NCBI GenBank assembly: GCA_904373265.1 | Contig: CAJFEE010000020.1 | Location: 1 to 48,871 of the forward strand | Direction: 5' to 3' | From: Candidatus Harrysmithiimonas galli | GTDB taxonomy: Bacteria; Bacillota; Bacilli; CAJFEE01 | Length of the DNA: 48,871 nt | Shown: piece after piece, positions 2,255 to 48,633 of the stretch | Position numbering within the stretch: position 1 is the stretch's first letter | Layout: each line of letters opens with the position of its first letter | The notes under the pieces: generated by a model | The model's input: only the letters and a program-made list of their open reading frames with translations | What the model was told of the DNA's origin: nothing | Database searches by the model: none | Made by a program: the position numbers and the translations under genes

Positions 2255-2456
2255 AAATCAAAGACATAGCTTTAAATGGGCAAAAAATGCTTGTCAAAGC
2301 AAATAAATGGATGTATAAGCATAAGATATACATTCATAGACAAATTGGTTCGTCCTTGTCCGCTTTACAAAATTTTTGGTTCGTTTTCAAAAATCAAAAA
2401 GAAATATGCAGACAATTGGCAATATATTGCTTTTGATTTATTCTTTGGTTTCTTTT

Positions 2457-2503: not shown

Positions 2504-2537
2504 CATTTACTTTATAACGATATTTGGAGGGGATGAT

Positions 2538-3023: not shown

Positions 3024-4138
3024 AAACCATTTTACCTCCTCAAACGATTGGAATTATTGGTGGTGGACAGTTAGGTAGAATGATGGCTATCAATGCCAAA
3101 CAGATGGGGTATCGAATTGCCTCTTTAGATCCAACACCAAATTGCCCACTTGCACAAGTTGCCGACCATGAAATTATTGGTGCGTATAGTGACCTTAAAG
3201 CGATTCAAGAACTGGCAGCAGTCAGTGATGTGATTACTTATGAGTTTGAGAATATTAGTGTAGAGGCATTGGAATGGCTGATGGAAAATGCCTATGTTCC
3301 GCAAGGGAGTCATGTTTTGTATGCAACTAAACATCGCCTTCGAGAAAAGCAAACGGTTGAATCTTTTGGGGTTTTGGTTGCTCCATATGTTGCTGTTAAC
3401 AGTCATTCTGATCTGGAAAAAGGCTTAAAGCAGCTTGGATACCCGGCGGTATTAAAAACTTGTACTGGTGGATATGACGGGAAGGGACAATCTGTGATAA
3501 AAATACCAGATGATATTCAGGATGCAATCCGGCTTTTGCAAACGGATTGCGTGCTTGAAAAATGGATTCCGTTTTTATGCGAAGTTTCTGTGATTGTTCA
3601 CCGCAGTCCTTCAGGAGAAATTTCTGCTTATCCGGTTGGTGAAAATATTCACCGAAATCAAATCTTACATGAAACCATTGTACCGGCTCGAATTCCTGAT
3701 TCGGTTTCTGTTAAGGCTTTGCAAATCGGAAAACTTATTGCAGAAAAGTTTCAGCTTGTTGGTACGCTGGCTATTGAAATGTTTGTCACCGAAGATGAGA
3801 AAATTTATGTGAATGAGTTGGCACCACGTCCTCATAACTCAGGGCACTATACGATGGAGGCTTGTGAAACTTCACAATTTGAACAGCATATTCGCGCAGT
3901 ATGCAATTTACCACTTGGAAATACAAGATTGCTTAGCCCAGTTGTTATGGTTAATGTGCTTGGTGAGCATTATGACGCTGTGATCCAAGCAAAAGATTTG
4001 TGGAAGATTGGCAAGGTGCATTTATACGGAAAAGCGGATGTAAAAACAGGTAGAAAAATGGGTCATGTGAATATTTTATGTTCGCATGTTGATTTTGCAT
4101 TGGATGCCATAAAAAATATAAAACTCTGGAATCAATAA
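3020..4138 (+). CDS. purK: N5-carboxyaminoimidazole ribonucleotide synthetase
   Basis: PurK uses ATP and bicarbonate to carboxylate AIR to N5-CAIR, the substrate of PurE. The 372-residue protein starts with the [13 protein letters not shown] nucleotide-fold motif, has the central ATP-grasp region ([13 protein letters not shown], about residues 148-160) and ends with the conserved [17 protein letters not shown] block of the ATP-grasp C-lobe. Length and order fit the family. It overlaps purE by four bases and is followed after 18 bases by purB. Confidence 0.97.
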
Positions 4139-4156
4139 AACGGGAGGAATTTATTC

Positions 4157-5452
4157 ATGATTGAACGCTATACACGTCCAGAGATGGGAGCCATTTGGAC
4201 GGAACAAAACAAATTTCAAGCTTGGCTGGAAGTAGAAATCTTGGCTTGTGAAGCTTGGTCTGAGCTGGGGATAATTCCAAAAGCGGATGTTGAGAAGCTT
4301 TGGAAAAATGCAAAATTTGATGTTGAACGCATTTATGAAATTGAAAAGGACACCCGTCATGATGTTGTTGCGTTTACGCGCGCAGTTTCCGAAACGATTG
4401 CTGGCGATGAGAAAAAGTGGATTCATTATGGGCTGACATCAACAGATGTTGTAGATACAGCACTTTCTTATCTTTTAAAACAGGCAAATGAAATTTTGCT
4501 TAAAGATATCGAACGTTTTATTGAAATTTTAAAGGTAAAAGCAAAAAAGCATAAATATACCGTTATGATGGGGCGCACCCATGGTGTTCATGCCGAACCG
4601 ACAACCTTTGGGTTGAAAATGGCATTGTGGTATGAAGAAATGAAACGGAATTTAGAACGTTTCCAAGCTGCAGCAGAAGGTATTCGGGTCGGGAAAATTT
4701 CGGGTGCAGTCGGAACTTATGCCAATATTGATCCGTTTGTTGAACAATATGTTTGTGAGAAACTTGGTTTAAAACAGGCGCCGATTTCCACGCAGACTTT
4801 ACAGCGTGACCGTCATGCAAACTATATGGGAACGCTTGCCTTAATTGCTGCTTCTATTGAAAAATTCGCAACGGAAATTCGCGGATTGCAAAAAAGTGAA
4901 CAGCGTGAGGTTGAGGAATTTTTTGCAAAAGGACAAAAAGGTTCTTCTGCGATGCCGCATAAACGCAATCCAATCGGGTCAGAAAATATGGTGGGCTTAG
5001 CTCGTTTAATTCGGGGACATATGATTACTGCATACGAAAATGTTTCCTTATGGCATGAACGGGATATTTCGCATTCTTCTGCAGAGCGTGTCATTTTGCC
5101 AGATGCAACAATTGCTTTAAATTATATGCTGAACCGTTTTATGAATATTGTAGAAAATTTAACTGTGTTTGAAGACAATATGAAGCGAAATATGGATCGA
5201 ACCTTCGGACTGATTTATTCTCAGCGTGTATTGCTTGCATTGATTGATAAAGGCTTGTCACGTGAAGAAGCCTATGATACAGTTCAGCCTAAAACCGCCG
5301 AAGCTTGGGACAAGCAAATCCAATTTCGTCCGTTGGTAGAGGCTGATCCGAAAATTACTGATATTTTATCCTCAGAAGAAATTGCTGACTGCTTTGATTA
5401 TTCTTGGCATTTGAAACATGTGGATACCATTTTCAATCGTTTAGGTTTATAA
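4157..5452 (+). CDS. purB: Adenylosuccinate lyase
   Basis: PurB releases fumarate twice in purine synthesis: from SAICAR to AICAR and from adenylosuccinate to AMP. The 431-residue protein has the three fumarase-superfamily blocks: TSTDVVDTA near residue 95, [14 protein letters not shown] near 138, and the signature loop [16 protein letters not shown] near 260 with the catalytic Ser. A GGGAGG site precedes the ATG. Size and motifs match Bacillus PurB closely. Third gene of the operon, as in B. subtilis. Confidence 0.97.
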
Positions 5453-5490
5453 AATCCAAATTCATATATTTTTAAAGAGGAGCAAATTTC

Positions 5491-6207
5491 ATGAATAAAG
5501 GGAACTTATTGTATGAAGGAAAGGCAAAGCGCATTTATCAAACAGAAGATGAAAATATTTTTTGGGTGGAGTATAAGGATGATGCAACAGCTTTTAATGG
5601 AGAAAAAAAAGCCTCGATTCAAGGAAAAGGTGTGCTAAACAATGCCATTACAAGTTTGATTTTTGAAAAATTAACAGAAGCCGGTGTAGAAAATCATTTT
5701 ATTCAAAAGCTTTCTGAAACTGAACAGTTGGTAAAAAAAGTCACCATTTTGCCATTGGAGGTTGTTGTTCGTAATGTAGTTGCTGGTTCTTTATCTAAAC
5801 GTACTGGGTTAGCAGAAGGAACCAAGCTGAAAAAGCCATTGATTGAATTTTATTATAAGGATGATGACTTGGGTGATCCGTTGTTTACTGATGCGCATAT
5901 TGAAATGATGGAAATTTGCAGTCCAAAAGATTTGGAGATACTTCGTGATTATGGATTTCGTGTGAATCAATTTTTGCAAGAAATTTTTGATGCCTGCCAT
6001 TTGAATTTGGTGGATTTTAAAATTGAATTGGGCAGAGATTCTGAAGGGAAAATCATTTTGGCCGATGAAATTTCACCAGATACTTGTCGTTTATGGGATA
6101 AAACAACAAATGAAAAGCTGGATAAAGATGTATTTCGTCGGGATTTAGGCAATTTAACTGATGCATATCAAGAAATTTTAAAAAGGCTAGGTGGCATAAA
6201 TGCGTAA
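5491..6207 (+). CDS. purC: Phosphoribosylaminoimidazole-succinocarboxamide synthase
   Basis: PurC (SAICAR synthetase) joins CAIR and aspartate using ATP. The 238-residue product begins with the family motif LLYEGKAKRIYQT, carries PLEVVVRNVVAGS near residue 90, and ends with the LADEISPDTCRLWD block that binds substrate. AAAGAGGAG precedes the start. It overlaps purS by eight bases. Confidence 0.97.
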   Translation: MNKGNLLYEGKAKRIYQTEDENIFWVEYKDDATAFNGEKKASIQGKGVLNNAITSLIFEKLTEAGVENHFIQKLSETEQLVKKVTILPLEVVVRNVVAGSLSKRTGLAEGTKLKKPLIEFYYKDDDLGDPLFTDAHIEMMEICSPKDLEILRDYGFRVNQFLQEIFDACHLNLVDFKIELGRDSEGKIILADEISPDTCRLWDKTTNEKLDKDVFRRDLGNLTDAYQEILKRLGGINA

Positions 6208-6454
6208 GGTAAAAGTATATGTAACGTTAAAAGAAAATGTTTTGGATCCGCAAGGAAGCGCGGTAGAACATGCACTTCACAGCTTAGGTTATCAAGCGGT
6301 TTCTCATGTCCGTATCGGAAAATATATGGAGCTTTTGGTGGATGAAAATGTTGAGAACATGGATGAAACCATAAAGGAAATGTGTGAGAAAATTTTATCT
6401 AATCCGGTCATTGAGGATTATACATACGAAATTGGGGAGGTTGTTTCCGAGTGA
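6200..6454 (+). CDS. purS: FGAM synthase subunit PurS
   Basis: PurS is the small structural subunit of the three-part formylglycinamidine ribonucleotide synthase (PurSQL) used by Bacilli. The 84-residue protein has the expected length and the family pattern [25 protein letters not shown] at its start. It overlaps purC by eight bases and purQ by four, in line with stoichiometric production of the complex. Confidence 0.95.
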
Positions 6455-7134
6455 AATATGCAGTGATTGTATTTCCAGGTTCCAATTGCGATGTAGATAT
6501 GTACCATGCCATTTGCGATGAGCTGGGTGAAGAGGTTGAATATGTGTGGCATACAAAGTCAAGCTTAGCAGGGTTTGATGCTATATTGCTGCCGGGTGGA
6601 TTTACCTTTGGCGATTATTTACGTTGCGGCGCCATTGCACGCTTTTCGCCAATTATGCAAGCGATTATTGAAGCTGCAAAAGCTGGGAAGCCGATTCTTG
6701 GTGTTTGTAATGGCTTTCAAATTCTTGTTGAAGCCGGACTTTTACCAGGGGCTTTGGTTAGAAATAAAAATTTAAAATTTATATGCCGGCATATCAATTT
6801 GATCGTAAAAAACAACCAAACTCTGTTTACCTCCTTGTATAAAAAGGGTGAAGTCATTGATATTCCGATTGCGCATGGGGAAGGCAGCTATTATTGCGAT
6901 GAAGAAACATTAAAGTCTTTGCAGGAAAACAATCAAATTGTGTTTTCGTATGACAGCAATCCAAATGGTAGTGTGGACAATATTGCAGGAATTATCAATG
7001 AACAAGGAAATGTTTTGGGCATGATGCCTCACCCTGAAAGAGCTGTGGATGCGCTGTTAGGCAGTGCAGACGGATTAAAAATATTTCAATCGATTTTAGC
7101 GAACTGGAGGGATACGCATGCCGCAAACGCATGA
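6451..7134 (+). CDS. purQ: FGAM synthase glutaminase subunit PurQ
   Basis: PurQ is the class I glutamine amidotransferase that feeds ammonia to PurL. The 227-residue protein contains the nucleophile elbow GVCNGFQIL (Cys near residue 86), the catalytic His in AHGEGSYY or MPHPERA, and the N-terminal [10 protein letters not shown] motif. The start is a GTG that overlaps the purS stop (GTGA); no ATG fits the N-terminal motif. The end overlaps purL by 17 bases. Confidence 0.96.
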
Positions 7135-9349
7135 ACCAACACCACAACAAATTAAAGAGCAACAGCTTTATCGTGAAATGGGTCTAAGTGATGAAGAATT
7201 TGCAAAAGTTGAAGAAATTTTAGGCCGTATGCCAAATTATACAGAAACCGGTATTTTTGCAGTGATGTGGTCAGAGCATTGCAGCTATAAAAATTCCAAA
7301 CCGGTTTTACGAAAGTTTCCGACATCTGGTTCAAGGGTACTGCAAGGCCCAGGAGAAGGTGCAGGTATTGTAGATATTGGAGATAAAAAGGCAGTTGTTT
7401 TTAAAATCGAAAGTCATAATCATCCGTCTGCTATTGAGCCTTATCAAGGTGCGGCAACTGGTGTTGGTGGAATTATTCGTGACATTTTTTCAATGGGTGC
7501 ACGTCCAATTGCGATGTTGAATTCTTTACGTTTTGGAGAGTTGGACACATCACGAACCAAATATTTATTTGAAGAGGTTGTTGCCGGGATTGCTGGATAT
7601 GGAAACTGTATTGGAATTCCAACGGTTGCAGGAGAAGTCCAATTTGATGCTTGCTATGAAGGGAATCCGTTGGTCAATGCAATGTGTGTTGGTATCATTG
7701 ATCATAAGGATATTAAAAAAGGACAGGCCAAAGGTGTTGGGAACTCTGTAATTTATGTCGGAGCTTCAACGGGTAAAGATGGAATTCATGGAGCAACTTT
7801 TGCTTCTGAAGAATTGTCTGAAGCTTCCGAAGAAAAACGTCCAGCCGTTCAAGTTGGTGATCCATTTATGGAAAAGCTGCTTTTGGAAGCTTGTCTGGAG
7901 ATTATTCAATCTGATGCATTGGTTGGCATTCAAGATATGGGTGCAGCTGGTTTAACTTCATCTTCTGCAGAGATGGCTTCAAAAGCCGGAATGGGAATCG
8001 AAATGAATTTGGATCAGGTTCCACAACGTGAGCCAAATATGACCCCCTATGAGATGATGCTTTCTGAATCACAAGAGCGTATGCTGTTGGTTGTGCAAAA
8101 AGGGCGTGAGGAAGAAATTTTTGCCATTACCCAAAAATATGATTTGGAGGCTAGTGTAGTCGGAACAGTGACTGAGGATAAAATGTTACGATTATTTTTT
8201 AAAGGTGAGGTTGCTGCTGAGATTCCGGTGGATGCATTGGCAGAAGAAGCACCTGTTTATAATAAGCCTTCTAAAGAGCCGGATTATTTTGCAAAATTCC
8301 GTCAAATGGAAAATGTAGAACCAGAAGTAGAAAGTTTAGAAGAAACTTTGCTACATTTATTGGAGCAAACAACGATTGCAAGCAAGGAATGGGTGTATGA
8401 CCAATATGACTATCAGGTGCGGACCAATACAGTTGTTTGTCCAGGATCAGATGCTGCTGTTTTACGTGTACGTGGTACCCATAAAGCATTAGCTATGACA
8501 ACCGATTGTAATTCCAGATACATTTATTTGGATCCGGTTGAGGGTGGAAAAATCGCAGTTGCTGAAGCCGCACGTAATATTGTATGTTCTGGCGGTCAAC
8601 CACTTGCTATTACAGACTGTTTAAATTACGGCAATCCAGAAAAGCCAGAAATCTTTTGGCAGCTCGAAAAATCTGCTGATGGAATTTCGGAGGCTTGTCG
8701 CGTACTGGAGACACCAGTTATTGGTGGAAATGTTAGCTTATACAATGAAACAAATGGAGAAGCAGTTTATCCAACACCAGTTATTGGGATGGTGGGGTTG
8801 ATTGAGGATCTTTCCCATATTACAACACAATATTTTAAAAAAGCTGGTGATCTGATTTATGTCATTGGCGGTACCAAAACAGAATTTGGTGGTAGCGAAC
8901 TACAAAAAATGCTGACTGGGAAAATTGAAGGAAAAGCACCTGCTATAGATTTAACGGTAGAAAAAGATCGTCAAAGACGGCTGCTTCGTATGATTCAGGC
9001 TGGATGGGTTGCCAGTGCGCATGATGTATCTGAAGGTGGATTATCCTGTGCATTGGCAGAATGTGTGATGGGAACAAACCTTGGACTGGATGTGCAGTTA
9101 TCTGGCTCTATGGTTACCACTTTATTTAGCGAATCCCAATCCCGTTTTGTGGTCAGTGTAAAGCCGGAAAATCAAGCAGCATTTGAAGTGACAATGACAG
9201 ATGCTTTACAAATTGGACAAGTAACAGATGACGGACAATATCAAATTACAGGTCAATCCAATGAAAAATGGATCCAGCTTCCAGTTTCTGAATTAACGCG
9301 TCGTTGGAAAGGAGCAATTCCGAAATGCTTGCAGAAATCAAAGGCTTAA
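7118..9349 (+). CDS. purL: FGAM synthase catalytic subunit PurL
   Basis: PurL converts FGAR to FGAM with ATP and ammonia supplied by PurQ. The 743-residue length is that of the small, Gram-positive form that needs PurQ and PurS. Visible motifs are the [21 protein letters not shown] substrate-binding block, [16 protein letters not shown] and the second-half repeat ([34 protein letters not shown]) expected from the internally duplicated PurM-like fold. It overlaps purF by 25 bases. Confidence 0.97.
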
Positions 9350-10749
9350 ATGAAGAATGTGGAGTCTTTGCTGTTTGGGGGCATAATGATGCACCACAAA
9401 TTACGTATTATGGACTTCATGCACTACAACATCGAGGTCAGGAAGCAACAGGTATGGTTGTTACCAATGGGAAAATATTGGATATTTACAAAGGCAATGG
9501 TTTGGTTACAGAAGTTTTTCAAGAGGAGTCACTTCGGAATCTAAAAGGTTGTGGGTCAATTGGGCATGTTCGATATTGTACAAGTGGTGGTGGAGGAAGT
9601 GAGAATATTCAACCGTTCTTATTTCGTTCTTCTTCAACCTATGATTTGGCGCTTGCACATAATGGAAATCTTGTGAATGCAAATGTATTAAAAGCAGAAT
9701 TGGAAAAAATGGGCAGTATTTTCCACTCTACATCAGACACAGAGGTTTTGGGACATTTGATTCGCAGAAGTACAAAAAAGCCGTTTATTGATCAAGTGAT
9801 GGAATCTTTAGTCCGATTAGAAGGTGCGTTTGCCTATTTGATTATGAAAGATGATGAACTGATTGGTGCACGTGATCCACATGGACTACGCCCGCTTTCC
9901 CTAGGTAGACTCGGAGATGGATATATTTTGACTTCTGAAACCTGTGCTTTTCATGTTGTCGGGGCGACCTTCATTCGAGATATTGAACCGGGTGAGCTCG
10001 TTTGGATGAATCAAGAAGGTATACATTTTAAACGTTTTGCACCGAAAAAAATATGGGCAATGTGTGCGATGGAATATGTTTATTTTGCACGTCCAGATAG
10101 TGATGTGGATGGCGCAAATGTTCATTCTACACGCAAAAAAATGGGGAAATATTTGGCACAGGAAACTTCAGTTGATGCGGATGTTGTAATTGGTGTACCG
10201 GATTCCAGTATTTCTTGTGCAGTTGGTTATGCCGAACAATCCGGAATTCCATATGAGCTTGGATTAATAAAAAATCGTTATGTTGCACGTACATTTATTC
10301 AACCTTCACAAGCTTTACGAGAACAAGGTGTAAAAATGAAGCTTTCACCGGTTCGCTCTATTGTAGAAGGGAAACGGGTTATTATGGTGGATGATTCCAT
10401 TGTGCGCGGAACGACAAGCCGTCGAATTGTGAATCTATTACGTGAGGCAGGCGCAACCGAAGTTCATGTCCGTATCGGCTGCCCACCGATTCGATTTCCA
10501 TGTTTTTACGGAATTGATACCTCTACAAAGGAAGAATTGATATCTGCTAAGTTTTCCAATGAAGAAGTACGGAAGCTGATTGGTGCGGATTCTTTAGAAT
10601 ATTTAAGTGAACAGGCATTGATTCGAGCGGTTCAAGAGGAAGTCAATTCTTCGGAAAATCAAGGGCTATGCATGGCTTGTTATACCGGACAATATCCAAC
10701 AGCGCTGTTTGGATTGGATCAAGAAAAGGAAGAAAAAATAAAAATTTAA
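9325..10749 (+). CDS. purF: Amidophosphoribosyltransferase
   Basis: PurF makes phosphoribosylamine from PRPP and glutamine, the committed step. The ATG at 9325 is chosen over an in-frame TTG at 9304 because AAAGGAG lies at 9308-9314 and the product then begins [12 protein letters not shown], nearly identical to B. subtilis PurF: an 11-residue propeptide ahead of the catalytic Cys12. The PRPP loop [14 protein letters not shown] is present. Cysteines in [14 protein letters not shown] and LCMACYTG match the four ligands of the B. subtilis oxygen-sensitive 4Fe-4S cluster. The product is 474 residues. It overlaps purL, and a hairpin separates it from purM. Confidence 0.97.
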
Positions 10750-10750
10750 G

Positions 10751-10772
10751 GGCGGTAAAATGGACCGCCTTT
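10751..10772 (+). terminator. Intercistronic hairpin between purF and purM
   Basis: GGCGGT 10751-10756 and ACCGCC 10764-10769 form a perfect 6-bp stem followed by only three T. It begins one base after the purF stop. The short T run argues for an RNA-stability element or weak attenuator rather than a full terminator. Confidence 0.45.
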
Positions 10773-10815
10773 ACTGGTTCTGCATAGCGAAAAATACAAA
10801 AAGGAGGACGAATGG

Positions 10816-11856
10816 ATGTCTTCAGCTTATAAACAAGCAGGTGTTGATATTGAAGCAGGCTATGAATCGGTTTCACGTATGAAAAAACATGTGGAACAAA
10901 CGATGCGTAAAGAGGTGCTAGGCGGCCTTGGGAGTTTTGGTGGTATGTTCGATTTATCTCAAATGAAAGTAAAGAATCCCGTTTTGGTTTCAGGAACAGA
11001 CGGTGTTGGAACAAAAATCAAATTGGCTTTTATGACGGATCGACATAATACAATCGGAATTGATGCGGTTGCGATGTGTGTGAATGATGTGATTGTTCAA
11101 GGCGCTGAACCATTGTTTTTCTTAGATTATATTGCCTGCGGAAAACAAGTACCAGAAAAAATCGAATCCATTGTAAAAGGTGTGGCAGAAGGCTGTAAAC
11201 AAGCGGGTTGTGCTTTAATTGGAGGAGAAACCGCAGAAATGCCAGGACTGTATGCAGAAAATGAATATGACTTGGCTGGCTTTACTGTTGGAGTTGTTGA
11301 AAAATCCCAACTGGTTACTGGTGAAAAAATTCGTCCAGGTGATGTTTTAATCGGCTTGGCTTCCAGCGGAATTCATAGCAATGGATATTCCTTGGTTCGA
11401 AAAATTTATTTTGATGAGGCAAAAATGGATTTACATACAGAGATTGAAGCGTTTGGTAAGACATTAGGGGAAGAACTTTTGGTACCAACCAAAATTTATG
11501 TAAAGGCTGTTTTGGCTGTATTGGATAAGGTGAAAATTAAAGGGATGTCCCATATTACTGGCGGTGGTTTTTATGAAAACATTCCACGTATGCTTCCAAT
11601 GGGCTGTGGAGTTGAAATTTCATATGGTTCTTGGCCGATTTTACCGATTTTTAAACATATGCAAGAACTTGCTGGATTAAAGGAAAAAGATATGTTTAAC
11701 ACTTTTAATATGGGTATTGGTTTTGTGTTGGCCGTTCGTCCCAAAAGGGTAGAACAAGCGATGGAAATTTTACAAGAATTTGGTGAAACACCTTATCAGA
11801 TTGGTGTTGTGACCGATACACCAGGTGTAAAATTTAGCGGAGGTTCTTTTGAATGA
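10816..11856 (+). CDS. purM: Phosphoribosylformylglycinamidine cyclo-ligase
   Basis: PurM (AIR synthetase) closes the imidazole ring of FGAM using ATP. The 346-residue protein has the family sequence [15 protein letters not shown] at the start, the GTDGVGTK phosphate loop, [10 protein letters not shown] and [14 protein letters not shown] at 10803 precedes two nearby ATGs; the one at 10816 is in frame. It overlaps purN by four bases. Confidence 0.97.
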
Positions 11857-12434
11857 TAAAGCTTGCCATTTTTGCCTCCGGAAGCGGAACCAATTTTGTT
11901 AAGCTTACTGAGGCGATCCAAAATAAAGAAATTGACGGAGAACTCGCTTTGCTGGTTTGTGATCGACCAGGAGCAAAGGTGATTGAACATGCCAAAAGGC
12001 TTGGAATAAAAACTTTGGTCTATCAACCGAAAGATTTTAAAAACAAAGCAGCATATGAAACCGAATTGCTTCTGAACTTACGGGCACAAGATATAAAAGC
12101 CATTGTACTTGCTGGCTATATGCGTTTAATTGGAGAAGTGCTCCTTGAAGCTTATAGCGGAAAAATCATCAATTTGCATCCGTCCTTGCTACCAAGCTTT
12201 CCTGGTAAAGATGCCATTTTACAGGCATGGAAAAAAGAGGTAAAGGTAACTGGAATTACCATTCATTTTGTGGATGAAGGAATGGATACGGGTCCGATTA
12301 TTGCACAAAAGCCATATGAGATCAAACCGACAGATACATTGGAGAGCTTAACAGAGGAAATACATAAAATCGAACATGAATGGTATCCGAAAATTGTACA
12401 ATTTGTAATCAAAAATTATTGGAAAGAGGCGTAG
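11853..12434 (+). CDS. purN: Phosphoribosylglycinamide formyltransferase
   Basis: PurN transfers a formyl group from 10-formyltetrahydrofolate to GAR. The 193-residue protein shows FASGSGTNF at the N terminus, the catalytic-site block [14 protein letters not shown] near residue 105, and [17 protein letters not shown]. All are family hallmarks. Coupled to purM by an ATGA overlap; purH begins six bases after its stop. Confidence 0.96.
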
Positions 12435-12439
12435 CTGAG

Positions 12440-13972
12440 ATGAAAAGAGCGTTAATCAGTGTTTCAGATAAAGCAGGAATCGTTGAATTTTCTCAAAAAT
12501 TGTCTGATTTAGGCATTGAAATTTTATCAACTGGCGGTACAAAAAAGTTGCTGGATGATCATAATATTCCTTGCATACAAGTCAGTGATTTTACGAAATT
12601 TCCCGAAATGCTAGATGGTCGAGTCAAAACTTTGCATCCGATGATTCATGGTGGAATTTTAGGCATTCGTAAAAATGAAGCACATATGAAGCAAATGCAG
12701 GAGCATGGAATCCAGCCGATTGATATTGTTGTTATCAATTTATATCCGTTCAAAGAGACCATCTCCAAGCCGAATGTTGCCTGGGAGGATGCCATCGAAA
12801 ATATTGATATTGGTGGTCCAGCCATGGTGCGTTCCAGTGCCAAAAACCATGAGGATGTCGTGATTTTGGTTGAACCAGTTGACTATGATGAAGTGATTGC
12901 ACAGCTTAAAGAAACTGGAACCGTCAGCTTAGCAACCAAACGCCGTTTAGCCGCAAAAGCATTTCGCCATACAGCCGCTTATGATGCGTTAATTGCTGGT
13001 TTTTTAAGTGAAGCAGTCGGAGAAGTTGCACCCCAAAAGCTTACTGTAACTTTTGAGAAGCAACAGGATCTACGATATGGGGAAAATCCGCATCAAAGGG
13101 CCTCTTTTTATCGTACACCAATGGCAGTGAAAGGCTCGATTGCATATGCCAAAAAACTGCATGGAAAAGAGCTTTCTTATAATAATATCAATGATGCCAA
13201 TGCAGCGCTGCAAATTGTAAAGGAATTTGATCGTCCAGCAGCGGTTGCTGTGAAGCACATGAATCCATGTGGTGTTGGCATCGGAGAAACCATTTTTGAA
13301 GCATTTTGCCATGCATATGAAGCGGATACAACTTCAATTTTTGGCGGAATTGTTGCACTAAATCGCGAGGTGGACAGAGAAACTGCAGAAAAGTTGCATC
13401 AAATTTTCTTAGAAATTGTTATTGCTCCTTCATTTACCCAAGAAGCTTTAGAAATTTTAACTGCAAAGAAAAATATTCGTTTATTGACTTTGGATATTGC
13501 CACAAATGAGCAGAAAGAAAAAGCGTGGGTTACTATAACTGGTGGGGCATTGATTCAAGATTTGGATCAACTCGGTTTTGCAGATGCCGACATAAAAGTT
13601 GTAACCAAGCGTGAGCCAACAGAAAAAGAATGGGAAGACCTCAAACTGGGTTGGGCAGTTGTCAAGCATGTAAAATCCAATGCCATTGTTTTAGCCAAAG
13701 ATGGAATGACAGTAGGAATTGGAGCCGGACAAATGAATCGTGTGGGCAGTGCAAGAATTGCCTGTGAACAAGCTGGGGCACGTGCAAAAGGTAGTGCATT
13801 GGCTTCGGATGCATTTTTCCCGATGCCAGATACTGTAGAATTGGCTGCAAAATCTGGGGTTACGGCGATTATTCATCCAGGTGGTTCAGTACGTGATGAG
13901 GACTCCATTCGTGTAGCGGATGAAAACAATATAGCTATGGTTATGACGGGAATTCGTCATTTTAAACATTAA
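12440..13972 (+). CDS. purH: Bifunctional AICAR transformylase / IMP cyclohydrolase
   Basis: PurH catalyses the last two steps to IMP. The N-terminal MGS-like cyclohydrolase domain begins [14 protein letters not shown] and holds STGGT and [10 protein letters not shown]; the C-terminal transformylase holds LRYGENPHQ and [11 protein letters not shown]. The product is 510 residues, the usual length. An in-frame ATG at 12380 lies inside purN and is rejected in favour of 12440, which matches the family N terminus. Confidence 0.97.
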
Positions 13973-13988
13973 TTGTTGGAGGGAAGCT

Positions 13989-15248
13989 ATGAATATTCTA
14001 ATTATTGGAAGCGGTGGACGCGAGCATGCGATGGCACAAAAAGCTGCAGAAAGCAAAAAAGTCAAGCAAGTATTTGTTGCACCAGGAAATGATGGAATGA
14101 CTGCACCGCTTCAATGTGTCAAAATAGATGTTTTGGACTTTGATGCACTCATTGCTTTTGCCAAAGAAAAGCAAATTGCTTTAACCCTTGTTGGACCTGA
14201 GGTTCCGTTAATGGAAGGTATTGTTGATCGTTTTATGGAGGCTGGGTTGAAAATTTTTGGTCCGAAAGCCAATGCAGCACTTTTAGAAGGCAGCAAAGGC
14301 TTTGCCAAAGATGTTATGAAACAATTTCAAATCCCGACAGCCGCTTATGAAACTTTTACCGATTTAGAAAAAGCAGAGAATTATATTCGTGTGCAAGGCG
14401 CACCGATTGTCATAAAAGCAGACGGTCTGGCAGCAGGGAAGGGTGTCGTTGTTGCCATGACAGAACAAGAAGCTCTGCAAGCCGTTCGGGAAATGCTTGC
14501 AGAAGGAAAATTTGGTGCATCCGGAAATTCTGTTGTAATCGAGGAATTTTTGGAAGGGCAGGAATTCAGCCTAATGTCTTTGGTACATGATACAACTGTG
14601 ATTCCGTTAGAAATTGCACAGGATCATAAGCGTGTGTTTGATGGAGACAAAGGTCCGAATACTGGTGGCATGGGTGCTTATTCACCTGTCCCACAAATTC
14701 CAGATGAAGCTGTGCAAACTGCCATGGATACCATTGTACATCCGACCGTTCAAGCTATGAAAGCACTTGGGCGCAGCTTTACAGGTATTTTATATGCTGG
14801 ACTTATTTTAACAAAAGATGGTCCAAAAGTGATTGAATTCAATGTTCGCTTTGGTGATCCAGAAACACAGCCGATTTTAATGCGTTTAAAAAGTGATTTG
14901 ATTGAGGTGCTTCTTGATTTACTAGATGCGAAAGTAACCGATCTGAAATGGAAAAAAGAAGCAGTGATTGGTGTTGTAATGGCCTCAAAAGGTTATCCAG
15001 GAGATTATGAAAAAGGCTTTGTGATCGAAGGTTTGGATACCTTAAATCCGGAAACTGGCGTATTTCATGCTGGTACCAAACGAGAAGGGGATCAGCTGGT
15101 AAATGCTGGTGGACGTGTATTATTGATTGCCAGTGCAGGTGAAACATTACAAAAAGCGCAGAAAAAAGTGTATCAAGAAATGAAGAAGATTAAAAGCGAT
15201 GGTCTATTTTATCGAACCGATATTGGCGCAAAAGCTTTTCTTTCATAA
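13989..15248 (+). CDS. purD: Phosphoribosylamine-glycine ligase
   Basis: PurD (GAR synthetase) is an ATP-grasp ligase joining phosphoribosylamine and glycine. The 419-residue product begins MNILIIGSGGREHAMA, has VIKADGLAAGKGVVVA in the ATP-grasp domain, GPNTGGMGAYSPVP and EFNVRFGDPETQ. GGAGGG precedes the start. Last gene of the operon, followed by a strong terminator. Confidence 0.97.
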   Translation: MNILIIGSGGREHAMAQKAAESKKVKQVFVAPGNDGMTAPLQCVKIDVLDFDALIAFAKEKQIALTLVGPEVPLMEGIVDRFMEAGLKIFGPKANAALLEGSKGFAKDVMKQFQIPTAAYETFTDLEKAENYIRVQGAPIVIKADGLAAGKGVVVAMTEQEALQAVREMLAEGKFGASGNSVVIEEFLEGQEFSLMSLVHDTTVIPLEIAQDHKRVFDGDKGPNTGGMGAYSPVPQIPDEAVQTAMDTIVHPTVQAMKALGRSFTGILYAGLILTKDGPKVIEFNVRFGDPETQPILMRLKSDLIEVLLDLLDAKVTDLKWKKEAVIGVVMASKGYPGDYEKGFVIEGLDTLNPETGVFHAGTKREGDQLVNAGGRVLLIASAGETLQKAQKKVYQEMKKIKSDGLFYRTDIGAKAFLS

Positions 15249-40700: not shown

Positions 40701-41255
40701 ATGAGAAAAGTGATTGCATTATTATTGCTTGTTAGTGGAGGGTTGTTGGGCGCTTGTACAACACAAAACGGACAAACAACGGGGTTGGATACACCAATTA
40801 TGGAAAATGAAGATGTACAAGGCAGTGTACAAGATGACCTAGGTCTGCAAGAACCAAGTGAGGATACGTTAACCAATGATTCGACTGTAGATACCCAAAC
40901 CGAGGCATCAAATGGCAATACATCAGACCAGTCAAGTACCAGTACAACGACAAATACGAAAAACTATAGTTCACAAATTCAAACGTTGAAAACAAAAGTA
41001 GAAACTGCTGTAAAGCAGGCCAATGCTTTAAAGGCAAGTAATAACTGGGATGCAGATTTTCAGACTGGATATGATATGTTGGCGCAGTTGGATTTATTGG
41101 AAAGTGAAGTCGACATGTTGGAAGATGAAATAAAATGGCAAGCACAGACGGGAAATGGTGATTATTGGAATCAGCTAGAGCAAGTGAAGCAATTGGAGTT
41201 TCAGTTGGATCAGGCAAAGAATTATATTGAATTTGAGTTTAAAATTGATGATTAA
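40701..41255 (+). CDS. Lipoprotein of unknown function
   Basis: A 184-residue protein with a type II signal peptide: MRKVIALLLLVSGG then lipobox LLGAC, Cys19 being the lipid anchor. Residues 20-85 are a disordered Thr/Ser/Gln/Asp linker; residues 90-184 form a helical, coiled-coil-like domain (LKTKVETAVKQANALKASNN...LDLLESEVDMLEDEIKWQ). GGAGGG lies nine bases before the start. Divergent from topB. No family recognised. Confidence 0.82.
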   Translation: MRKVIALLLLVSGGLLGACTTQNGQTTGLDTPIMENEDVQGSVQDDLGLQEPSEDTLTNDSTVDTQTEASNGNTSDQSSTSTTTNTKNYSSQIQTLKTKVETAVKQANALKASNNWDADFQTGYDMLAQLDLLESEVDMLEDEIKWQAQTGNGDYWNQLEQVKQLEFQLDQAKNYIEFEFKIDD

Positions 41256-41562: not shown

Positions 41563-42261
41563 ATGAAGCAAAAAAAATTAAAGTATCGCCACGAAGTAAA
41601 ATTTTTTATGCATGAAGGTGACTATCAGGTTTTACGAAATCATTTAAAAAACATTTTGTCACGGGATCGTTTTGCCTCAGAGGATGGAACTTATAAAATT
41701 CGTAGCATATATTTTGATAATGTATATGACCAAGCGGTCCTTGAGAAGCTCGCTGGTGTACTCAAACGGGAAAAATTTCGTTTGCGTTATTATAATCACA
41801 ATCCAGATTTTATTCGACTGGAGAAAAAGTCAAAAATTAATCAAATGGTGAATAAACGAACTGCAGCGGTGACAAAAGAACAGGTAGAACGAATTTTGCG
41901 GCTGGATGTGGATTGGATGAAAGAGACGAAGGATCCATTGCTTGTGGAGTTTTATATCAAATGGAAGCAAAACTTATTGCGACCGCGAACGATTGTTGAC
42001 TATAAAAGAGAAGTGTTTTTATATAAACCAGGCAATGTTCGCATTACAATCGATCGGGATGTGCGAAGTGGACGTTATAGTCAACGTTTTTTTGATTCGG
42101 AAATTCCAATGATGTCTTTAATGAATGAGGGGAATGTTATTTTGGAGGTCAAATATGATGCGTATTTACCGGATCTCATTAAGGATTGTATTCAATTAAA
42201 TCAAAGAAGATACAGTGCAATATCCAAATATGTTGCATCTCGTATGCTAGAATGGAGATAG
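41563..42261 (+). CDS. VTC-domain polyphosphate polymerase
   Basis: A 232-residue protein made only of a VTC domain, the tunnel-shaped catalytic domain that makes polyphosphate from ATP in the yeast VTC complex. Conserved charged residues occur in order: RHEVKFFM, IRSIYFDN, KFRLRYYN, RLEKKSK, VEFYIKWKQNLLRPRTIVDY, VRITIDRDVRSG and VILEVKYD, giving the ring of Lys, Arg and Glu that binds phosphate and metal. The ATG at 41563 is used; a GTG at 41554 overlaps the GGAGGTG site. First gene of a tight cluster with DUF4956 and CotH-like genes. Catalysis is inferred. Confidence 0.88.
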   Translation: MKQKKLKYRHEVKFFMHEGDYQVLRNHLKNILSRDRFASEDGTYKIRSIYFDNVYDQAVLEKLAGVLKREKFRLRYYNHNPDFIRLEKKSKINQMVNKRTAAVTKEQVERILRLDVDWMKETKDPLLVEFYIKWKQNLLRPRTIVDYKREVFLYKPGNVRITIDRDVRSGRYSQRFFDSEIPMMSLMNEGNVILEVKYDAYLPDLIKDCIQLNQRRYSAISKYVASRMLEWR

Positions 42262-42264
42262 AAA

Positions 42265-42963
42265 ATGGATAATATGAATGATACAACAATTAATTTCTCA
42301 GATATTTTTAAATCCTCTTTTTTAGACAAAATGTCAAACTTTACGGTTACGGATATATTGATTGCGCTTTTTCTTTCAATTGCAGTCGGTTTATTTATTT
42401 ATTTTATTTATAAAAAAACATTTAATGGTGTGATGTATTCAGAAAGCTTTTCCATGAGTCTTGTAGCGATGACAGTTATTACAAGTGTTATGATTTTAGC
42501 AATTAGCTCGAATATTATCATTTCACTTGGTATGGTTGGGGCATTGTCTATTGTTCGGTTTCGTACAGCAATTAAAGAACCAACCGACATTGTCTTTTTA
42601 TTCTGGTCCATTAGTATGGGCGTTGTAATTGGTGCAGGAATGATTCCGCTTGCAGTTATTGGCTCGATAGTGATTGGAATTATGCTGGTCGTGTTTTCCA
42701 ATAAGAAAACCCGTGAAAACCCATATGTCCTTGTGTTAACTGTTGAAGATGAAGAAACTGAAAAACAAGTGTTAAATCATGTGCGTCAATCGGTAAAACG
42801 AAGCTTATTAAAGTCTAAAACTTTATACGGTGTAAACGGAACAGAATTGACCATTGAGGTTCGTCTGAACAATCAGGATACTGGATTCATCAATCAATTA
42901 CAAAATATGCCAAAGGTACATCAGGTTATGATGGTAAGCTTTAACGGAGAATATATGGCATAA
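42265..42963 (+). CDS. DUF4956 membrane protein
   Basis: A 232-residue membrane protein with about four segments between residues 29 and 150, and the hallmark IVRFRTAIKEPTDIVFLFWSI between the third and fourth. The C-terminal 80 residues are a soluble, acidic domain. DUF4956 genes are commonly adjacent to VTC-domain genes; a role in moving or sensing the polymer is guesswork. It starts three bases after the VTC stop. Confidence 0.88.
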   Translation: MDNMNDTTINFSDIFKSSFLDKMSNFTVTDILIALFLSIAVGLFIYFIYKKTFNGVMYSESFSMSLVAMTVITSVMILAISSNIIISLGMVGALSIVRFRTAIKEPTDIVFLFWSISMGVVIGAGMIPLAVIGSIVIGIMLVVFSNKKTRENPYVLVLTVEDEETEKQVLNHVRQSVKRSLLKSKTLYGVNGTELTIEVRLNNQDTGFINQLQNMPKVHQVMMVSFNGEYMA

Positions 42964-42975
42964 GGAGCGAGTCGA

Positions 42976-44784
42976 ATGTACATACAAAAAAAACGGTGGC
43001 TCATTATTGGATTGATTTTTATACCAGCCGTTTTGCTTTCTCTTTATATCTGGTATATTTCATTTACTGAAGATTATACAGTGGTTTCTTCACAATCTGC
43101 AGCTGTGACTGCAAGTATTTCATCTGATGAAATTATGGATGTGCAAATTGAAATGGATCCAGATGATTTTCAAAATATGTTGGATACAGCAATGGAGGAG
43201 CAATATACAAGTGCAACTGTTGTGATTAATGGTGAACGTTTTGAGAATGTAGGTATTCGTCCCAAAGGAAATTCAACTCTGACACAAATTGTAAATAATC
43301 CAAATACCGACCGTTTTTCGTTTAAAATCAAGTTGGATGAGTATATAGATGGTCAAAATTATCAAGGGATGACTAAAATTGTTTTGAACAATAATATGTC
43401 GGATACAACTTATTTGAAGGAATTTATGTCCTATGAGTTGATGGAATATATGGATGTGCCAACACCGATGCATGCGTTTTCCAATATTTCTGTAAATGGT
43501 GAAACATGGGGTTTATATTTATTTGTCGAGCCGATTGAGGAATCATTTATTGAAAGAGTATATCAAACTGTTGAGGGGAATTTGTATAAGCCAGAGAGCA
43601 AGTACGGAGTACCATTTGATGATCCGGAAGGCGATGCAAAAGTATTGAGTCTGGTATATCAGGGAGAAGATGTTTCATTATATGAAGAAATTACAAGTTC
43701 GGCTGTATTTAAACAAACCAATACAGAAGATTATAATAAGTTAATCAATTTTATTCGAACGATGGATACTGGGGAAAATTTGGAATCGGTGATGAATGTA
43801 GAAGAATTTGCACGGTACTTTGCAGTGAATACATTTTTGGTGAACTTAGATCATTATTCTGGTCATATGTTGCATAACTATTATTTGTATGAAAACCAAG
43901 GGGTATTTGAAATTTTACCGTGGGATTATAATTTATCGTTTGGTACATTTGAGATTTCAGCAGCAGAAGCAATCAATTTTCCAATTGACAAGCCGACAAC
44001 AGAGAATTTGCAGGAGCGTCCGTTAATCAATAGCTGGTTGCAAAATGAAACTTACCGAACTATGTATCATACGTATTTGGCCGATATCGCATCTTATGTA
44101 GAATCTGGACAGTTTGAAAAAAGAGTTCTTCAAATGAATGAACGTATTGCTGAATATGTAAAAAATGATCCGACAGCCTTTTATACTTATGAAGAATATG
44201 AAACTGGGATTGAGCAATTGTTGATTTTTGCAAAAGATCGCACCCAAAGTATTTTGGCACAACTGGAAGGGTCACAGCCTTCCGATCAAACGGGTACTTT
44301 GGAAACCACTTTGGATATTTTAGCTTTGGGTGACAATGGAATGGGGAAGTTCTATGAGAATTTGAACGGTTTGGATTCGGAAAATGTTGAATTTGGCAAT
44401 CGGGGTGGTGAGGAGAAACCGCCTGCATTTCCAGGTGAAGCTGCTCCTTCTATTCCGTCAAATAAAGGAGAGCGTCCAGCAGCACCTCCGACGGTTAACG
44501 AAGCTGAAGTACCGTCTGCGGATAGAGTATCAGAACAAGCTACCGATAAAGCGGATACATCCGAAATACAAATAGATGAAAACAAAGCTGAAGATTCAAT
44601 TATGCCATGGCCAGATGAATTTGAAGAATCTGAAGATCTGCTTTGGGATGATTTTTCGCCAGGTCCTTTTGATGGATATTCAATGGAAATGTTAGGCAGT
44701 TTGATTGGTGGAGCAGTTGCAATCGGATTGGTTGTATTGGTTACAATTGTTTTGAAAAGATATCAACGAAAAAAATATGAGTAA
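42976..44784 (+). CDS. CotH-like surface kinase with two membrane anchors
   Basis: A 602-residue protein: membrane segment at about 7-28, an extracellular CotH-like kinase domain at about 50-430, a Pro/Glu-rich linker at about 470-550 and a second membrane segment near 573-595. CotH motifs seen are VGIRPKGNSTL, FSFKIKLDEY, KIVLNNNMSDTTYLKE, GLYLFVEPIEESF, and the catalytic block HNYYLYENQGVFEILPWDYN with its Asp. Spore CotH of Bacillus phosphorylates coat proteins; this membrane-tethered form would act on the cell surface. GGAG precedes the start 12 bases after DUF4956. Confidence 0.88.
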   Translation: MYIQKKRWLIIGLIFIPAVLLSLYIWYISFTEDYTVVSSQSAAVTASISSDEIMDVQIEMDPDDFQNMLDTAMEEQYTSATVVINGERFENVGIRPKGNSTLTQIVNNPNTDRFSFKIKLDEYIDGQNYQGMTKIVLNNNMSDTTYLKEFMSYELMEYMDVPTPMHAFSNISVNGETWGLYLFVEPIEESFIERVYQTVEGNLYKPESKYGVPFDDPEGDAKVLSLVYQGEDVSLYEEITSSAVFKQTNTEDYNKLINFIRTMDTGENLESVMNVEEFARYFAVNTFLVNLDHYSGHMLHNYYLYENQGVFEILPWDYNLSFGTFEISAAEAINFPIDKPTTENLQERPLINSWLQNETYRTMYHTYLADIASYVESGQFEKRVLQMNERIAEYVKNDPTAFYTYEEYETGIEQLLIFAKDRTQSILAQLEGSQPSDQTGTLETTLDILALGDNGMGKFYENLNGLDSENVEFGNRGGEEKPPAFPGEAAPSIPSNKGERPAAPPTVNEAEVPSADRVSEQATDKADTSEIQIDENKAEDSIMPWPDEFEESEDLLWDDFSPGPFDGYSMEMLGSLIGGAVAIGLVVLVTIVLKRYQRKKYE

Positions 44785-45210
44785 CACACTCGATATAAAT
44801 GTGAAAAATTTGTAGGATTTTGTTATAAATCAAAAGATTAAATATGAAGAAAAGATTGCCAGATTGAATAGAAATGTAAAATGTAGCTTGAATGGTACAA
44901 ATGAGATCACATGTATTTACAAGAAAGCTTTGCAATTATGAAGCAGCTTGAAATATATGTGGTTTTATTTTTATGTCAGAAAATCTAGGATTTTACTACA
45001 AAGTTATTGATGATAGAATTTGGCTATATATTATTGTAGTTTGTGAATCAAAAAGGCAATTTTTTATGCTTGATTTTGGCTTTTACAGCAGTTGTAATCT
45101 GTAAAAAATATGATTTTTTGATCGAACTACTGTTCAAGAAAATGAAAACTTGTATAATATTCTTATTGTGTGTACCCAATGGAATTTTGGAGAAGAAAGA
45201 GGATTGATTT
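44785..45210. other. Gap upstream of the YfhO-GtrA gene
   Basis: No gene. A TATAAT at about 45153 may be the -10 of the next gene. CGAAC-TACT-GTTCA at 45123-45136 near its -35 position resembles an SOS box at 11 of 14 positions, which is too weak to call. Confidence 0.4.
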
Positions 45211-48111
45211 ATGGATAATCAATTTGTAGAAAGAAAAAGGGACTGGCTCATGCAGGGACTCTTGTGTGGCTTAGGGGTTTTTACTGTACTGTTTCTGTTT
45301 CCATCTGATATGTTATATGGTTCAATGGTAGATTGGTTAAATCAGCACCAAGTATTTCCAGAATATTTTCGACAGCAATTTTATCAAACTGGAAATTTGT
45401 TTCCGGATTTTTCATGGGAAATTGGTGGTGGACAAAATCTATATCAATTTTCCTACTATGGTTTGTTTAGTCCGTGGCTGCTTGTTTTTTATGGGTTGCC
45501 ATTTCTTTCTGCGGAAATCTATTTACCGATTGCGATGGTCGGGAGCATTCTTTTTTCGGTTTGTATCGGTTATCGCTGGCTTCGGTTTCGTGGTTATTCT
45601 TTATGGACTGCATTTCTTGCTTCGTCTTGTTTTTTATGGGCAGCACCACTTTTGTTTCATACCCATCGGCATCTGATGTTTATCAGTTATATGCCATTTT
45701 TGATGCTGGCGATTTTTGGCATTGAGAAATTGGTTCATACGGTTGATTCGTTTCGCAGTAGAAAACTTACCAGTGTACAAATCACTTTGGCTGTTGTTTG
45801 TTTGATTTTATCCAGTTATTTTTTTGCGCCTAGTTGTTTGGTTGTTTTGTTAATTTATACTACGTTTTGTGTGCTAGAAACGAGTCAAGGGCTTCAGAAT
45901 TTTTCTTCTAAGCTTTTGTGGATGTATGGAAAAATCGGTTTGTTATTTATGTTGGCAATTGGAATAACGGCGTTTTTATTGATTCCGACCGCATGGACAC
46001 TTCTATTCGGTCGAACAAGTGAAGGTGCAGAACAAGCAACATCGTTTTTATCATTATTTCTTCCAAATTGGCAGCCAGAATGGTTAACGGGTAGTGCTTA
46101 TGGTATGGGTTTGACACCAGTGGTTTTTTTGGCGGCTATATATGCACTTTTTCAAAAAAATAAGGCATTTCGTTTTTTAGCTGCCATTTGTCTTTTGTTT
46201 TTACTTGTTCCGTTTTTTGTTTGGATGCTGAATGGCACCCTATATATTCATGAGAAAATTTTAATTCCGTTTGTACCGCTTTGGATTTTGCTTTTGGCAC
46301 AATTTCTATCGGCATTTGTAAAATGGGGAAATAACCATTTGCATATGAAAAGGAAGCAATGGTTATATGGGGCATTGGGGCTAGTTGTTTTATTGTCTGC
46401 TTTGTTTATACAAATTTATGTCCAACAAAAGGAAGAGTGGGTTACGCAGTCTTTTATAAAAGAATTAGATATTCCTGAAAAGACAGCTTTATTAAAAACG
46501 CTTAGACAAATGGATTCTACTTTTTATCGAACCGATGATTTGATAGAAAACACGTTTACAGTCAATCAAACTTATGGTGGGGCATATCGTTCATCAGTAT
46601 ATGCGTCTATATCCAATCAACGATATAATACGTTTTATTATGATTGGATTGAAAATCCAATTTCGGCACGTAATCGAACCATTACTTCGGCATCTCCACA
46701 AATTTTTTCTCAAACATTTCTTGGTGTAAAATATCTGTTTGCAACAGATGAAAAAATGATACCGATTGGTTACCAAAGGCTAGGAAGTGAATTGGATACA
46801 GATGCGGTTCAGGTTTACCAAAATACAAATGTTTCGTCCATTGGCTATGCTTTACCAAGCACCATTACAGAGACGAAATTTCAAAATCTACCAGTCACAG
46901 AAAGATTGTCTGCGTTGTTTCAACAAATTGTTGTCACCGAAAAGGAGAATGGAAATATAGGTAATTCAACCAAAAAAGTGTCAACAGATTGGTTTTCAGA
47001 ATTTTATGCTACGGATACAAAACAGTTTGCTCAAGCGCTTACGGATGCAGTGAAGCAAGCTGAAACAAAAGAAGTTCAAACCATCTTGCCGCTGCCAAAT
47101 GTGAAGAACGAAGAGATTATTTTGTTGACTTTTGATGTGTCTAATAAAGAAACTCAAGCCAGCTCGGATATTTTAATTACAATGAACGGAATCAAAAATA
47201 AATTGTCCAAAAAAACCGCCCCATATCCAAATGAGAATCGACAATTTATTTATATGTTTTCAGGTGTAACACCGGATTGGAGCAATCTGGAAGTCACTTT
47301 AAGCAAAGGAACTTATCAAATCCATAATATTCAACTGTATCGAATGAATTATGCTCGTCTGCAGGAGGCTGTAAAGCAACGTGATGTGTTTCTTGCCAAG
47401 CGTCCAGATCCGAAAACCGGTGTGCTTTCTGGACAAATTACAGTTCAAGAGGACGGATATTTCGCAACAACAATTCCGTATGCAAAAGGGTTTCAAATTA
47501 AAGTAGATGGTGTATTGCAAACCTATGAATGTGTCAATACAGCGTTTGTTGGTTTTCCGATTCAGGCAGGTATGCATCAAATTGAAATATCTTATCAGGC
47601 GCCAGGGAAACAGCTGGGCATAATTGTTTCGATGGTTAGTGTTTTGTTTTTTTTGATTTGGATTTTTTTTGGTAAAGAAATTTATACAAGGGTTGAGCCA
47701 ATTTTGGAACGCTATAAGAAAATGATACAAGAAATTCTATTGTATTTATTTTTTGGTGTTTTGACAACAGCAGTCAGCTTTTTAACTTTTCAATTCAGTT
47801 TATCGATATTAGGTGCTACATGGATGATTGCCAATTTGATTTCCTGGATTTTGTCGGTTTTGTTTGCATACTTTACCAATCGAACTTGGGTATTTCAGTC
47901 AAAGCAATCAAGATGGTTGACGGAATGTATGCGTTTTGCAGCTTCCAGGTTGTTTTCCCTTGTTTTAGAGATGTTTTCTCTGTGGATTTTTATCGAGGTT
48001 TTACATATGACACCGCTGATTGCAAAAATATGGGCTGCGGTTATCGTTGTGATCAGTAACTATATTTTCAGTCGGATATTTGTATTTCGTAATGGACTAT
48101 CATCAGAATAA
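45211..48111 (+). CDS. YfhO-like membrane protein fused to a GtrA domain
   Basis: A 966-residue protein. Residues 1-400 hold about ten membrane segments typical of YfhO (polytopic proteins of the GT-C type proposed to use polyprenyl-linked sugars), with the loop DFSWEIGGGQNLYQFSYYG after the first. Residues about 405-810 are a large extracellular domain. After a membrane segment near 815-830, residues 845-960 form a GtrA domain (YLFFGVLTTAVSFLTFQ...FAYFTNRTWVFQ...SNYIFSRIFVFR) of four segments; GtrA proteins flip or help transfer polyprenyl-phosphate sugars. One chain thus joins a likely transferase and a flippase helper, as expected for teichoic acid glycosylation. That role is inferred. Confidence 0.88.
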   Translation: MDNQFVERKRDWLMQGLLCGLGVFTVLFLFPSDMLYGSMVDWLNQHQVFPEYFRQQFYQTGNLFPDFSWEIGGGQNLYQFSYYGLFSPWLLVFYGLPFLSAEIYLPIAMVGSILFSVCIGYRWLRFRGYSLWTAFLASSCFLWAAPLLFHTHRHLMFISYMPFLMLAIFGIEKLVHTVDSFRSRKLTSVQITLAVVCLILSSYFFAPSCLVVLLIYTTFCVLETSQGLQNFSSKLLWMYGKIGLLFMLAIGITAFLLIPTAWTLLFGRTSEGAEQATSFLSLFLPNWQPEWLTGSAYGMGLTPVVFLAAIYALFQKNKAFRFLAAICLLFLLVPFFVWMLNGTLYIHEKILIPFVPLWILLLAQFLSAFVKWGNNHLHMKRKQWLYGALGLVVLLSALFIQIYVQQKEEWVTQSFIKELDIPEKTALLKTLRQMDSTFYRTDDLIENTFTVNQTYGGAYRSSVYASISNQRYNTFYYDWIENPISARNRTITSASPQIFSQTFLGVKYLFATDEKMIPIGYQRLGSELDTDAVQVYQNTNVSSIGYALPSTITETKFQNLPVTERLSALFQQIVVTEKENGNIGNSTKKVSTDWFSEFYATDTKQFAQALTDAVKQAETKEVQTILPLPNVKNEEIILLTFDVSNKETQASSDILITMNGIKNKLSKKTAPYPNENRQFIYMFSGVTPDWSNLEVTLSKGTYQIHNIQLYRMNYARLQEAVKQRDVFLAKRPDPKTGVLSGQITVQEDGYFATTIPYAKGFQIKVDGVLQTYECVNTAFVGFPIQAGMHQIEISYQAPGKQLGIIVSMVSVLFFLIWIFFGKEIYTRVEPILERYKKMIQEILLYLFFGVLTTAVSFLTFQFSLSILGATWMIANLISWILSVLFAYFTNRTWVFQSKQSRWLTECMRFAASRLFSLVLEMFSLWIFIEVLHMTPLIAKIWAAVIVVISNYIFSRIFVFRNGLSSE

Positions 48112-48543: not shown

Positions 48544-48633
48544 TTATACATTCTTTCTGTCCAACCATTTGCAGATGTAATAAGAAATCACACTCGCCAC
48601 GACAGAAAGAACCAACTGTGTAAGGTAAGCCAT
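48544..48633 (-). CDS. Fst-like type I membrane toxin, 29 residues
   Basis: GGAGG followed nine bases later by ATG at 48633 opens a 29-residue peptide: MAYLTQLVLSVVASVISYY, then ICKWLDRKNV and TAA. A single membrane segment followed by a short charged tail with KWLDR is the plan of Fst/Ldr-type toxins, which damage the membrane when not silenced. An extended -10 promoter (TGGTATAAT, at about 48690-48682 on minus) gives a short leader. Convergent with the antitoxin RNA and ending in the shared terminator. Toxicity is inferred from architecture. Confidence 0.72.
   Translation of the reverse strand: MAYLTQLVLSVVASVISYYICKWLDRKNV

Follow-up and report, generated by a model that had tools for sequence, protein, structure and literature searches.

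A stretch of 48,871 bp from Candidatus Harrysmithiimonas galli (hereafter the window) forms an entire contig (G000:C20, 36.5% G+C) of a 2.7 Mb genome. It carries, on one strand, genes for a VTC-domain protein, a DUF4956 membrane protein and a CotH-family kinase-like protein, followed by a gene for a YfhO-GtrA fusion (Table 1). The original prediction, made from the sequence of the window, had joined all four into a single surface system. Its four genes and their named domains were borne out by our coordinates and by Pfam matches to VTC, DUF4956, CotH, YfhO and GtrA that are all well over the cut-off, and its spacing of the first three genes, with 3 nt between VTC and DUF4956 and 12 nt between DUF4956 and CotH, proved exact. 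We describe here why the first three genes should be regarded as one unit and the fourth should not.

Table 1. Genes of the locus, with positions in the window and the Pfam matches that define them.
Feature	Length (aa)	Coordinates	Strand	Pfam match
VTC-domain (triphosphate-tunnel) protein	232	41563..42261	+	PF09359, E 1.6e-38
DUF4956 membrane protein	232	42265..42963	+	PF16316, E 2e-12
CotH-family kinase-like protein	602	42976..44784	+	PF08757, E 1.3e-64
YfhO-GtrA fusion	966	45211..48111	+	YfhO PF09586, E 8.1e-50; GtrA PF04138, E 4.1e-23

A Conserved Three-Gene Cassette

We assessed the conservation of the locus in 101 genomes, namely that of the window and 100 relatives of the same class. Twenty-four of these genomes hold 29 VTC genes, and each of the 29 is followed immediately by DUF4956 on its own strand. 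VTC and DUF4956 occur together in those 24 genomes, VTC alone in none, DUF4956 alone in one and neither in 76 (Fisher p 2e-22, by a test that ignores kinship). The sole match without VTC, among 30 to DUF4956, falls below the family cut-off. Fifteen of the 29 VTC genes have a CotH gene no more than 4 kb away on the same strand, which follows DUF4956 in eight cases (the window included) and precedes VTC in seven. The cassette is lacking in the one relative that belongs to the same family as the window genome.

Further support comes from named GTDB genomes, where a scan with a DUF4956 alignment returned at least 564 relatives, the best 80 loci of which (L086-L165) were analysed. These loci were chosen by similarity to the window's kind, and their proportions describe that kind, not all DUF4956. 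VTC precedes DUF4956 in all 80, with a median gap of 24 nt. The gene after DUF4956 encodes CotH in 60 loci, Cthe_2159 (PF14262) in 16 and neither in four, some of which are interrupted by contig ends. Because VTC and DUF4956 adjoin one another in 29/29 and 80/80 cases in the two samples, the packing is far beyond chance, and VTC, DUF4956 and CotH are one tight cassette. This adjacency, together with the frequency of CotH as the next gene, supports the original prediction insofar as it treated these three genes as one functional unit. In 32 of the 57 loci with enough sequence, the 4 kb 5' of VTC contain genes for a histidine kinase and an OmpR-type response regulator, in either orientation; no two-component pair was found near the window's own cassette.

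Within the window, Shine-Dalgarno-like sequences lie ahead of VTC and of CotH. The one that precedes VTC at 41563 reads GGGAGG, and the mechanical open reading frame begins at GTG 41554. Scans for promoters and terminators near the genes returned about as many sites as did shuffled sequence, so we drew the limits of the operon from spacing and conservation only. A direct-repeat search 5' of VTC for a regulator box gave nothing convincing.

Fold and Active Site of the VTC Protein

The window's VTC protein has neither an SPX domain nor a membrane domain. Yeast Vtc4 is the top match among solved folds to its AlphaFold model (predicted local distance difference test, pLDDT, 90.0), with Z 20.1 and a root-mean-square deviation of 2.7 over 220 residues of 3g3r (Foldseek E 6.8e-14). 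By fold comparison, the non-catalytic tunnel domains of Vtc2 and Vtc3 score about as high (Z 18.9-19.3), while tunnel-type hydrolases and cyclases reach 15.3 or less. A profile alignment pairs K13, R73, R75, K89, K98, R149 and R160 with residues of Vtc4. Among these, R73 and R75 are the counterparts of Arg264 and Arg266, which bind ATP in Vtc4 and are essential for polyphosphate synthesis (PMC8749416). All of the paired residues, and likewise E195, K197 and K222, are each kept in at least 77 of the 78 VTC proteins from the loci. We take E195 and K222 to be the equivalents of Vtc4 Glu426 and Lys458, going by motif and by the structure of Vtc4.

A second comparison concerns the acidic patch by which tunnel hydrolases are recognised. 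Four basic residues on the chain path of Vtc4 are replaced by Glu in the hydrolase AtTTM3 (PMC4641920). At the corresponding positions of the window protein, assigned by motif mapping and not by superposed coordinates, R9, K98 and K197 share the basic character of Vtc4 and are nearly invariant, and E11 is acidic. Patch and fold together favour a polymerase without settling the matter, and the conserved active-site residues speak against an inactive protein. To judge from alignment and model, then, the protein is a probable polyphosphate polymerase; the Vtc4-like polymer-making enzyme of the original prediction finds support in the fold match and the conserved tunnel residues. A PPK1-type match elsewhere in the genome (G000:C28) led us to reject VTC as the only candidate for making polyphosphate. 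Given PPK1 in the same genome, VTC probably has a special role.

The Membrane Partner and the Exchangeable Third Protein

The model of DUF4956 shows about five membrane-associated helices up to residue 145 and an alpha/beta ferredoxin/ACT-like domain at residues 150-230. Sequence and profile searches of solved structures with DUF4956 returned nothing, and in a fold search only the C-terminal domain matched, to common ferredoxin/ACT-like folds. The C-terminal domain of MgtC was matched at Z 10.2, tied with unrelated proteins, and MgtC-family models gave weak, distant sequence matches. Because of these distant matches and the same kind of C-terminal domain, an MgtC-like nature of DUF4956 is plausible. 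Across the 80 loci, K50, R98, F99 and R100 are invariant and K104 is nearly so. The yeast vacuolar store depends on basic residues along the route that leads out of the Vtc4 tunnel and into the channel in the membrane (PMC9911596); the invariant basic residues of DUF4956 are reminiscent of this channel entry path.

The window's CotH protein matches the Bacillus CotH structure 5jd9 (E 8.6e-11). Its catalytic Asp residues, D292 and D317, are kept in 54/54 proteins from the loci, at positions that match those needed in Bacillus CotH, where D228Q inactivates the B. subtilis enzyme. Hydrophobic helices at 10-28 and 575-593, with a low-complexity tail before the second, agree with the original picture of a kinase anchored at both ends, and the kinase domain is probably outside. 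A search of viral contigs for the CotH protein found no relative.

In the third position, after DUF4956, the alternative to CotH is Cthe_2159, a carbohydrate-binding beta-helix family that takes its place in 16/80 loci and also in L080, L082, L083 and L085. On the DUF4956 tree the two have been exchanged at least eight times, and three of these exchanges are forced by well-supported branches. The two differ in their domains but resemble each other in layout. An N-terminal helix is found in 51/53 CotH and 15/15 Cthe_2159 proteins. Many also have a C-terminal helix that ends in basic residues (36/53 and 10/15, respectively), as compared to 33/311 other genes of the same loci, and values for a P/G/M/Q/N-rich tail are 0.34 for CotH and 0.41 for Cthe_2159, versus 0.21 in other locus genes (p 5e-10 and 1e-8). 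The surface partner is thus exchangeable, and for this reason the pattern suggests that the VTC-DUF4956 pair supplies something that is used outside.

The YfhO-GtrA Fusion and the Rest of the Contig

As the original prediction stated, the YfhO-GtrA fusion follows CotH on the same strand; its start lies 426 bp downstream, beyond an AT-rich spacer of 27% GC. A neighbourhood check of the four families, on which that prediction had staked the membership of this gene, found that YfhO-GtrA is not co-conserved. No YfhO/GtrA homologue occurs within 15 kb of VTC in any of the 100 relatives, nor was one detected in the named loci (0/80 at E 1e-5, over at most 10 kb on each side, many contigs being short). 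We therefore rejected the fusion as a cassette member, since it is not next to VTC in any other genome examined.

YfhO, GtcA/GtrA and a CsbB-type GT2 constitute a three-component pathway of teichoic acid glycosylation (PMC7389260). A YfhO-type glycosyltransferase, a GtrA flippase and a CsbB-like GT2 are all present in the window genome, the last with C-terminal hydrophobic stretches and on a different contig (G000:C5). From its domains, the fusion is most likely a teichoic-acid glycosyltransferase joined to its own sugar-lipid flippase, apart from the cassette. A single further fusion of this kind was noticed across 398 genomes of the class (G363, 1005 aa, L175 5540-8557); the gene beside it, in divergent orientation, encodes a DPM-like GT2, and their 9-kb contig has no VTC. 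The window genome has a second GtrA domain, joined to roughly 240 aa of N-terminal sequence in a 376-aa frame (L033 763-1893, G000:C6).

Upstream of the cassette are topoisomerase III and, just 5' of VTC, a lipoprotein-like gene at 40701-41255 whose 184-aa product has an N-terminal LLGACTT and no Pfam match. A good part of the remaining contig is devoted to metabolism. It includes a purine biosynthesis operon (2376-15248) preceded by a purine riboswitch (RF00167, 87.8 bits, 2168-2269). Near the contig end, very short hydrophobic frames at 48544-48633 (- strand) and from about 48823 (+ strand) resemble small membrane peptides of the type I toxin or holin-like kind, with no confident family match.

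Proposed Function and Alternatives

Our preferred reading, to which we assign a probability of about 0.42, is that 41563-44784 is a stand-alone cassette in which VTC makes polyphosphate, DUF4956 docks the enzyme or exports the polymer, and the protein in the third position acts on the exported product outside the cell. In such a scheme, VTC would build polyphosphate in the cytoplasm from the gamma-phosphate of ATP, a step that we consider likely from the fold and the aligned residues. DUF4956 would dock VTC at the membrane, playing the part of the Vtc1/3/4 membrane helices in yeast, and the chain would be taken to or across the membrane. The third protein, facing outward and anchored in the membrane by both of its ends, would then work on the exported product. 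CotH might phosphorylate a substrate at the surface, its own low-complexity tail being one possibility, and the donor could be either exported phosphate or a nucleotide; we infer both the export of the polymer and its use by CotH. A more specific version, in which a widespread bacterial counterpart of yeast VTC makes polyphosphate and exports it through an MgtC-like DUF4956, and the exported polymer serves CotH or Cthe_2159 in the third position, for example as a phosphate donor outside the cell, where ATP is scarce, seems to us unlikely.

Several points weigh against the preferred reading. Some VTC-DUF4956 pairs, such as those of L081, L084 and L108, are not directly followed by either CotH or Cthe_2159. 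The DUF4956 model is of moderate quality (pLDDT 77), matched no solved channel, and in its membrane part matched nothing useful. E11 of the VTC protein is Glu as in hydrolases, the Vtc4 residue being Thr by motif alignment, and our literature search yielded no demonstrated activity for any bacterial VTC protein. In Bacillus, the CotH kinase that was assayed works with ATP, and the low-complexity tails could be mere stalks.

Among other explanations, the one that survives best, though we hold it to be rather unlikely, is that the trio is an accessory set for an exopolysaccharide, with VTC and DUF4956 sensing or supplying phosphate and CotH regulating or modifying the polysaccharide machinery by phosphorylation. 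Genes for cotH, a poly-phosphate polymerase and DUF4956 adjoin pelDEADAFG in streptococci and clostridia, and regulation by phosphorylation via CotH has been suggested for Gram-positive Pel loci (PMC7112168). Seven loci of our relatives follow the order PelG-CotH-VTC-DUF4956, with PelG a few kb ahead of the other genes. However, PelG had no match in the window genome, no pel gene families were found among the window genes scanned, and the profiles of PelG, PelF and the deacetylase had no match in the 80 named loci. The Pel-type DUF4956 proteins, moreover, branch off to one side of the tree, with weak support for their grouping, and Pel-type CotH proteins are without the C-terminal membrane helix. 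We rejected a Pel polysaccharide locus at the window site because the genome is without PelG, and for the same reason the cassette stands alone here.

It is improbable, in our estimation, that no export takes place at all and that VTC is a tunnel-type phosphatase or an idle polyphosphate sensor, DUF4956 an MgtC-like regulator and CotH a plain ATP-using surface kinase. Such a signalling circuit would fit the nearby two-component genes and the distant MgtC-family matches, and of the ExExK motif of hydrolases E11 retains the second Glu. Yet the fold comes clearly closer to Vtc4 than to the tunnel hydrolases (Z 20.1 vs. at most 15.3), three of the four patch positions are basic, and tunnel residues this invariant would not be expected of an idle domain. 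The original system of four genes is very improbable: its members share a strand at a distance of 426 bp, and YfhO/GtrA is somewhat commoner in VTC genomes (12/24, the window's included, vs. 13/77 others), which may be kinship, but YfhO-GtrA is never a neighbour of VTC elsewhere, which refutes the system at the gene-neighbourhood level, and relatives of YfhO and GtrA belong to CsbB-GtcA-YfhO glycosylation.

Hundreds of bacteria from the gut and from anaerobic settings carry the cassette, among them Ruminiclostridium papyrosolvens and Butyrivibrio hungatei. The literature consulted credits bacterial polyphosphate synthesis to PPK enzymes and discusses VTC machinery in eukaryotes. A conserved VTC-DUF4956 pair, often linked to a two-component system and accompanied by an exchangeable surface partner, makes polyphosphate synthesis by bacterial VTC testable, as well as a dedicated bacterial route of polyphosphate export and the phosphate source of extracytoplasmic CotH-type kinases.

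Comparison With Known Systems

The trio itself has already been published, and we file the window cassette as a variant of the known Pel accessory gene set. The same three families stand in one cluster in the Gram-positive Pel accessory set (PMC7112168) and in NELoc-2 of Clostridium perfringens, which has VTC and CotH and whose genes next to VTC carried a tubulin/FtsZ GTPase annotation (PMC2879425); the length and place of those genes suggest that they are DUF4956. As in the Pel accessory set, VTC, DUF4956 and CotH are adjacent on one strand in the window, but there no pel genes were found beside them. The window differs from the Pel loci of relatives in that CotH comes after DUF4956 and not before VTC, that CotH has a second membrane helix, and that the genome has no PelG. 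A limited literature search did not find the stand-alone form, the exchange with Cthe_2159 or the two-component link.

The individual proteins also have known counterparts. The window's CotH shares with the Bacillus spore coat kinase CotH (5jd9; PMC7821199) the kinase domain and both catalytic Asp positions, but it is membrane-anchored at both ends and adjoins VTC-DUF4956; the substrates CotB and CotG are not expected for it. For the fourth gene only, the likeness is to CsbB-GtcA-YfhO (PMC7389260), in the YfhO and GtrA/GtcA domains and a CsbB-like GT2 in the genome, whereas the window's glycosyltransferase and flippase are in a single chain and the GT2 is on another contig.

The cassette as a whole can be compared to the yeast VTC complex, in which Vtc1, Vtc3 and Vtc4 form a polymerase and translocator. 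The two have in common the fold of the tunnel domain and the aligned residues that bind ATP and the chain, and the membrane partner, here DUF4956, has invariant basic residues. In contrast to the yeast complex, the bacterial VTC is without SPX, its catalytic domain is not joined to membrane helices, DUF4956 has no match to Vtc1, and the bacterial cassette includes a third, outside-facing protein.

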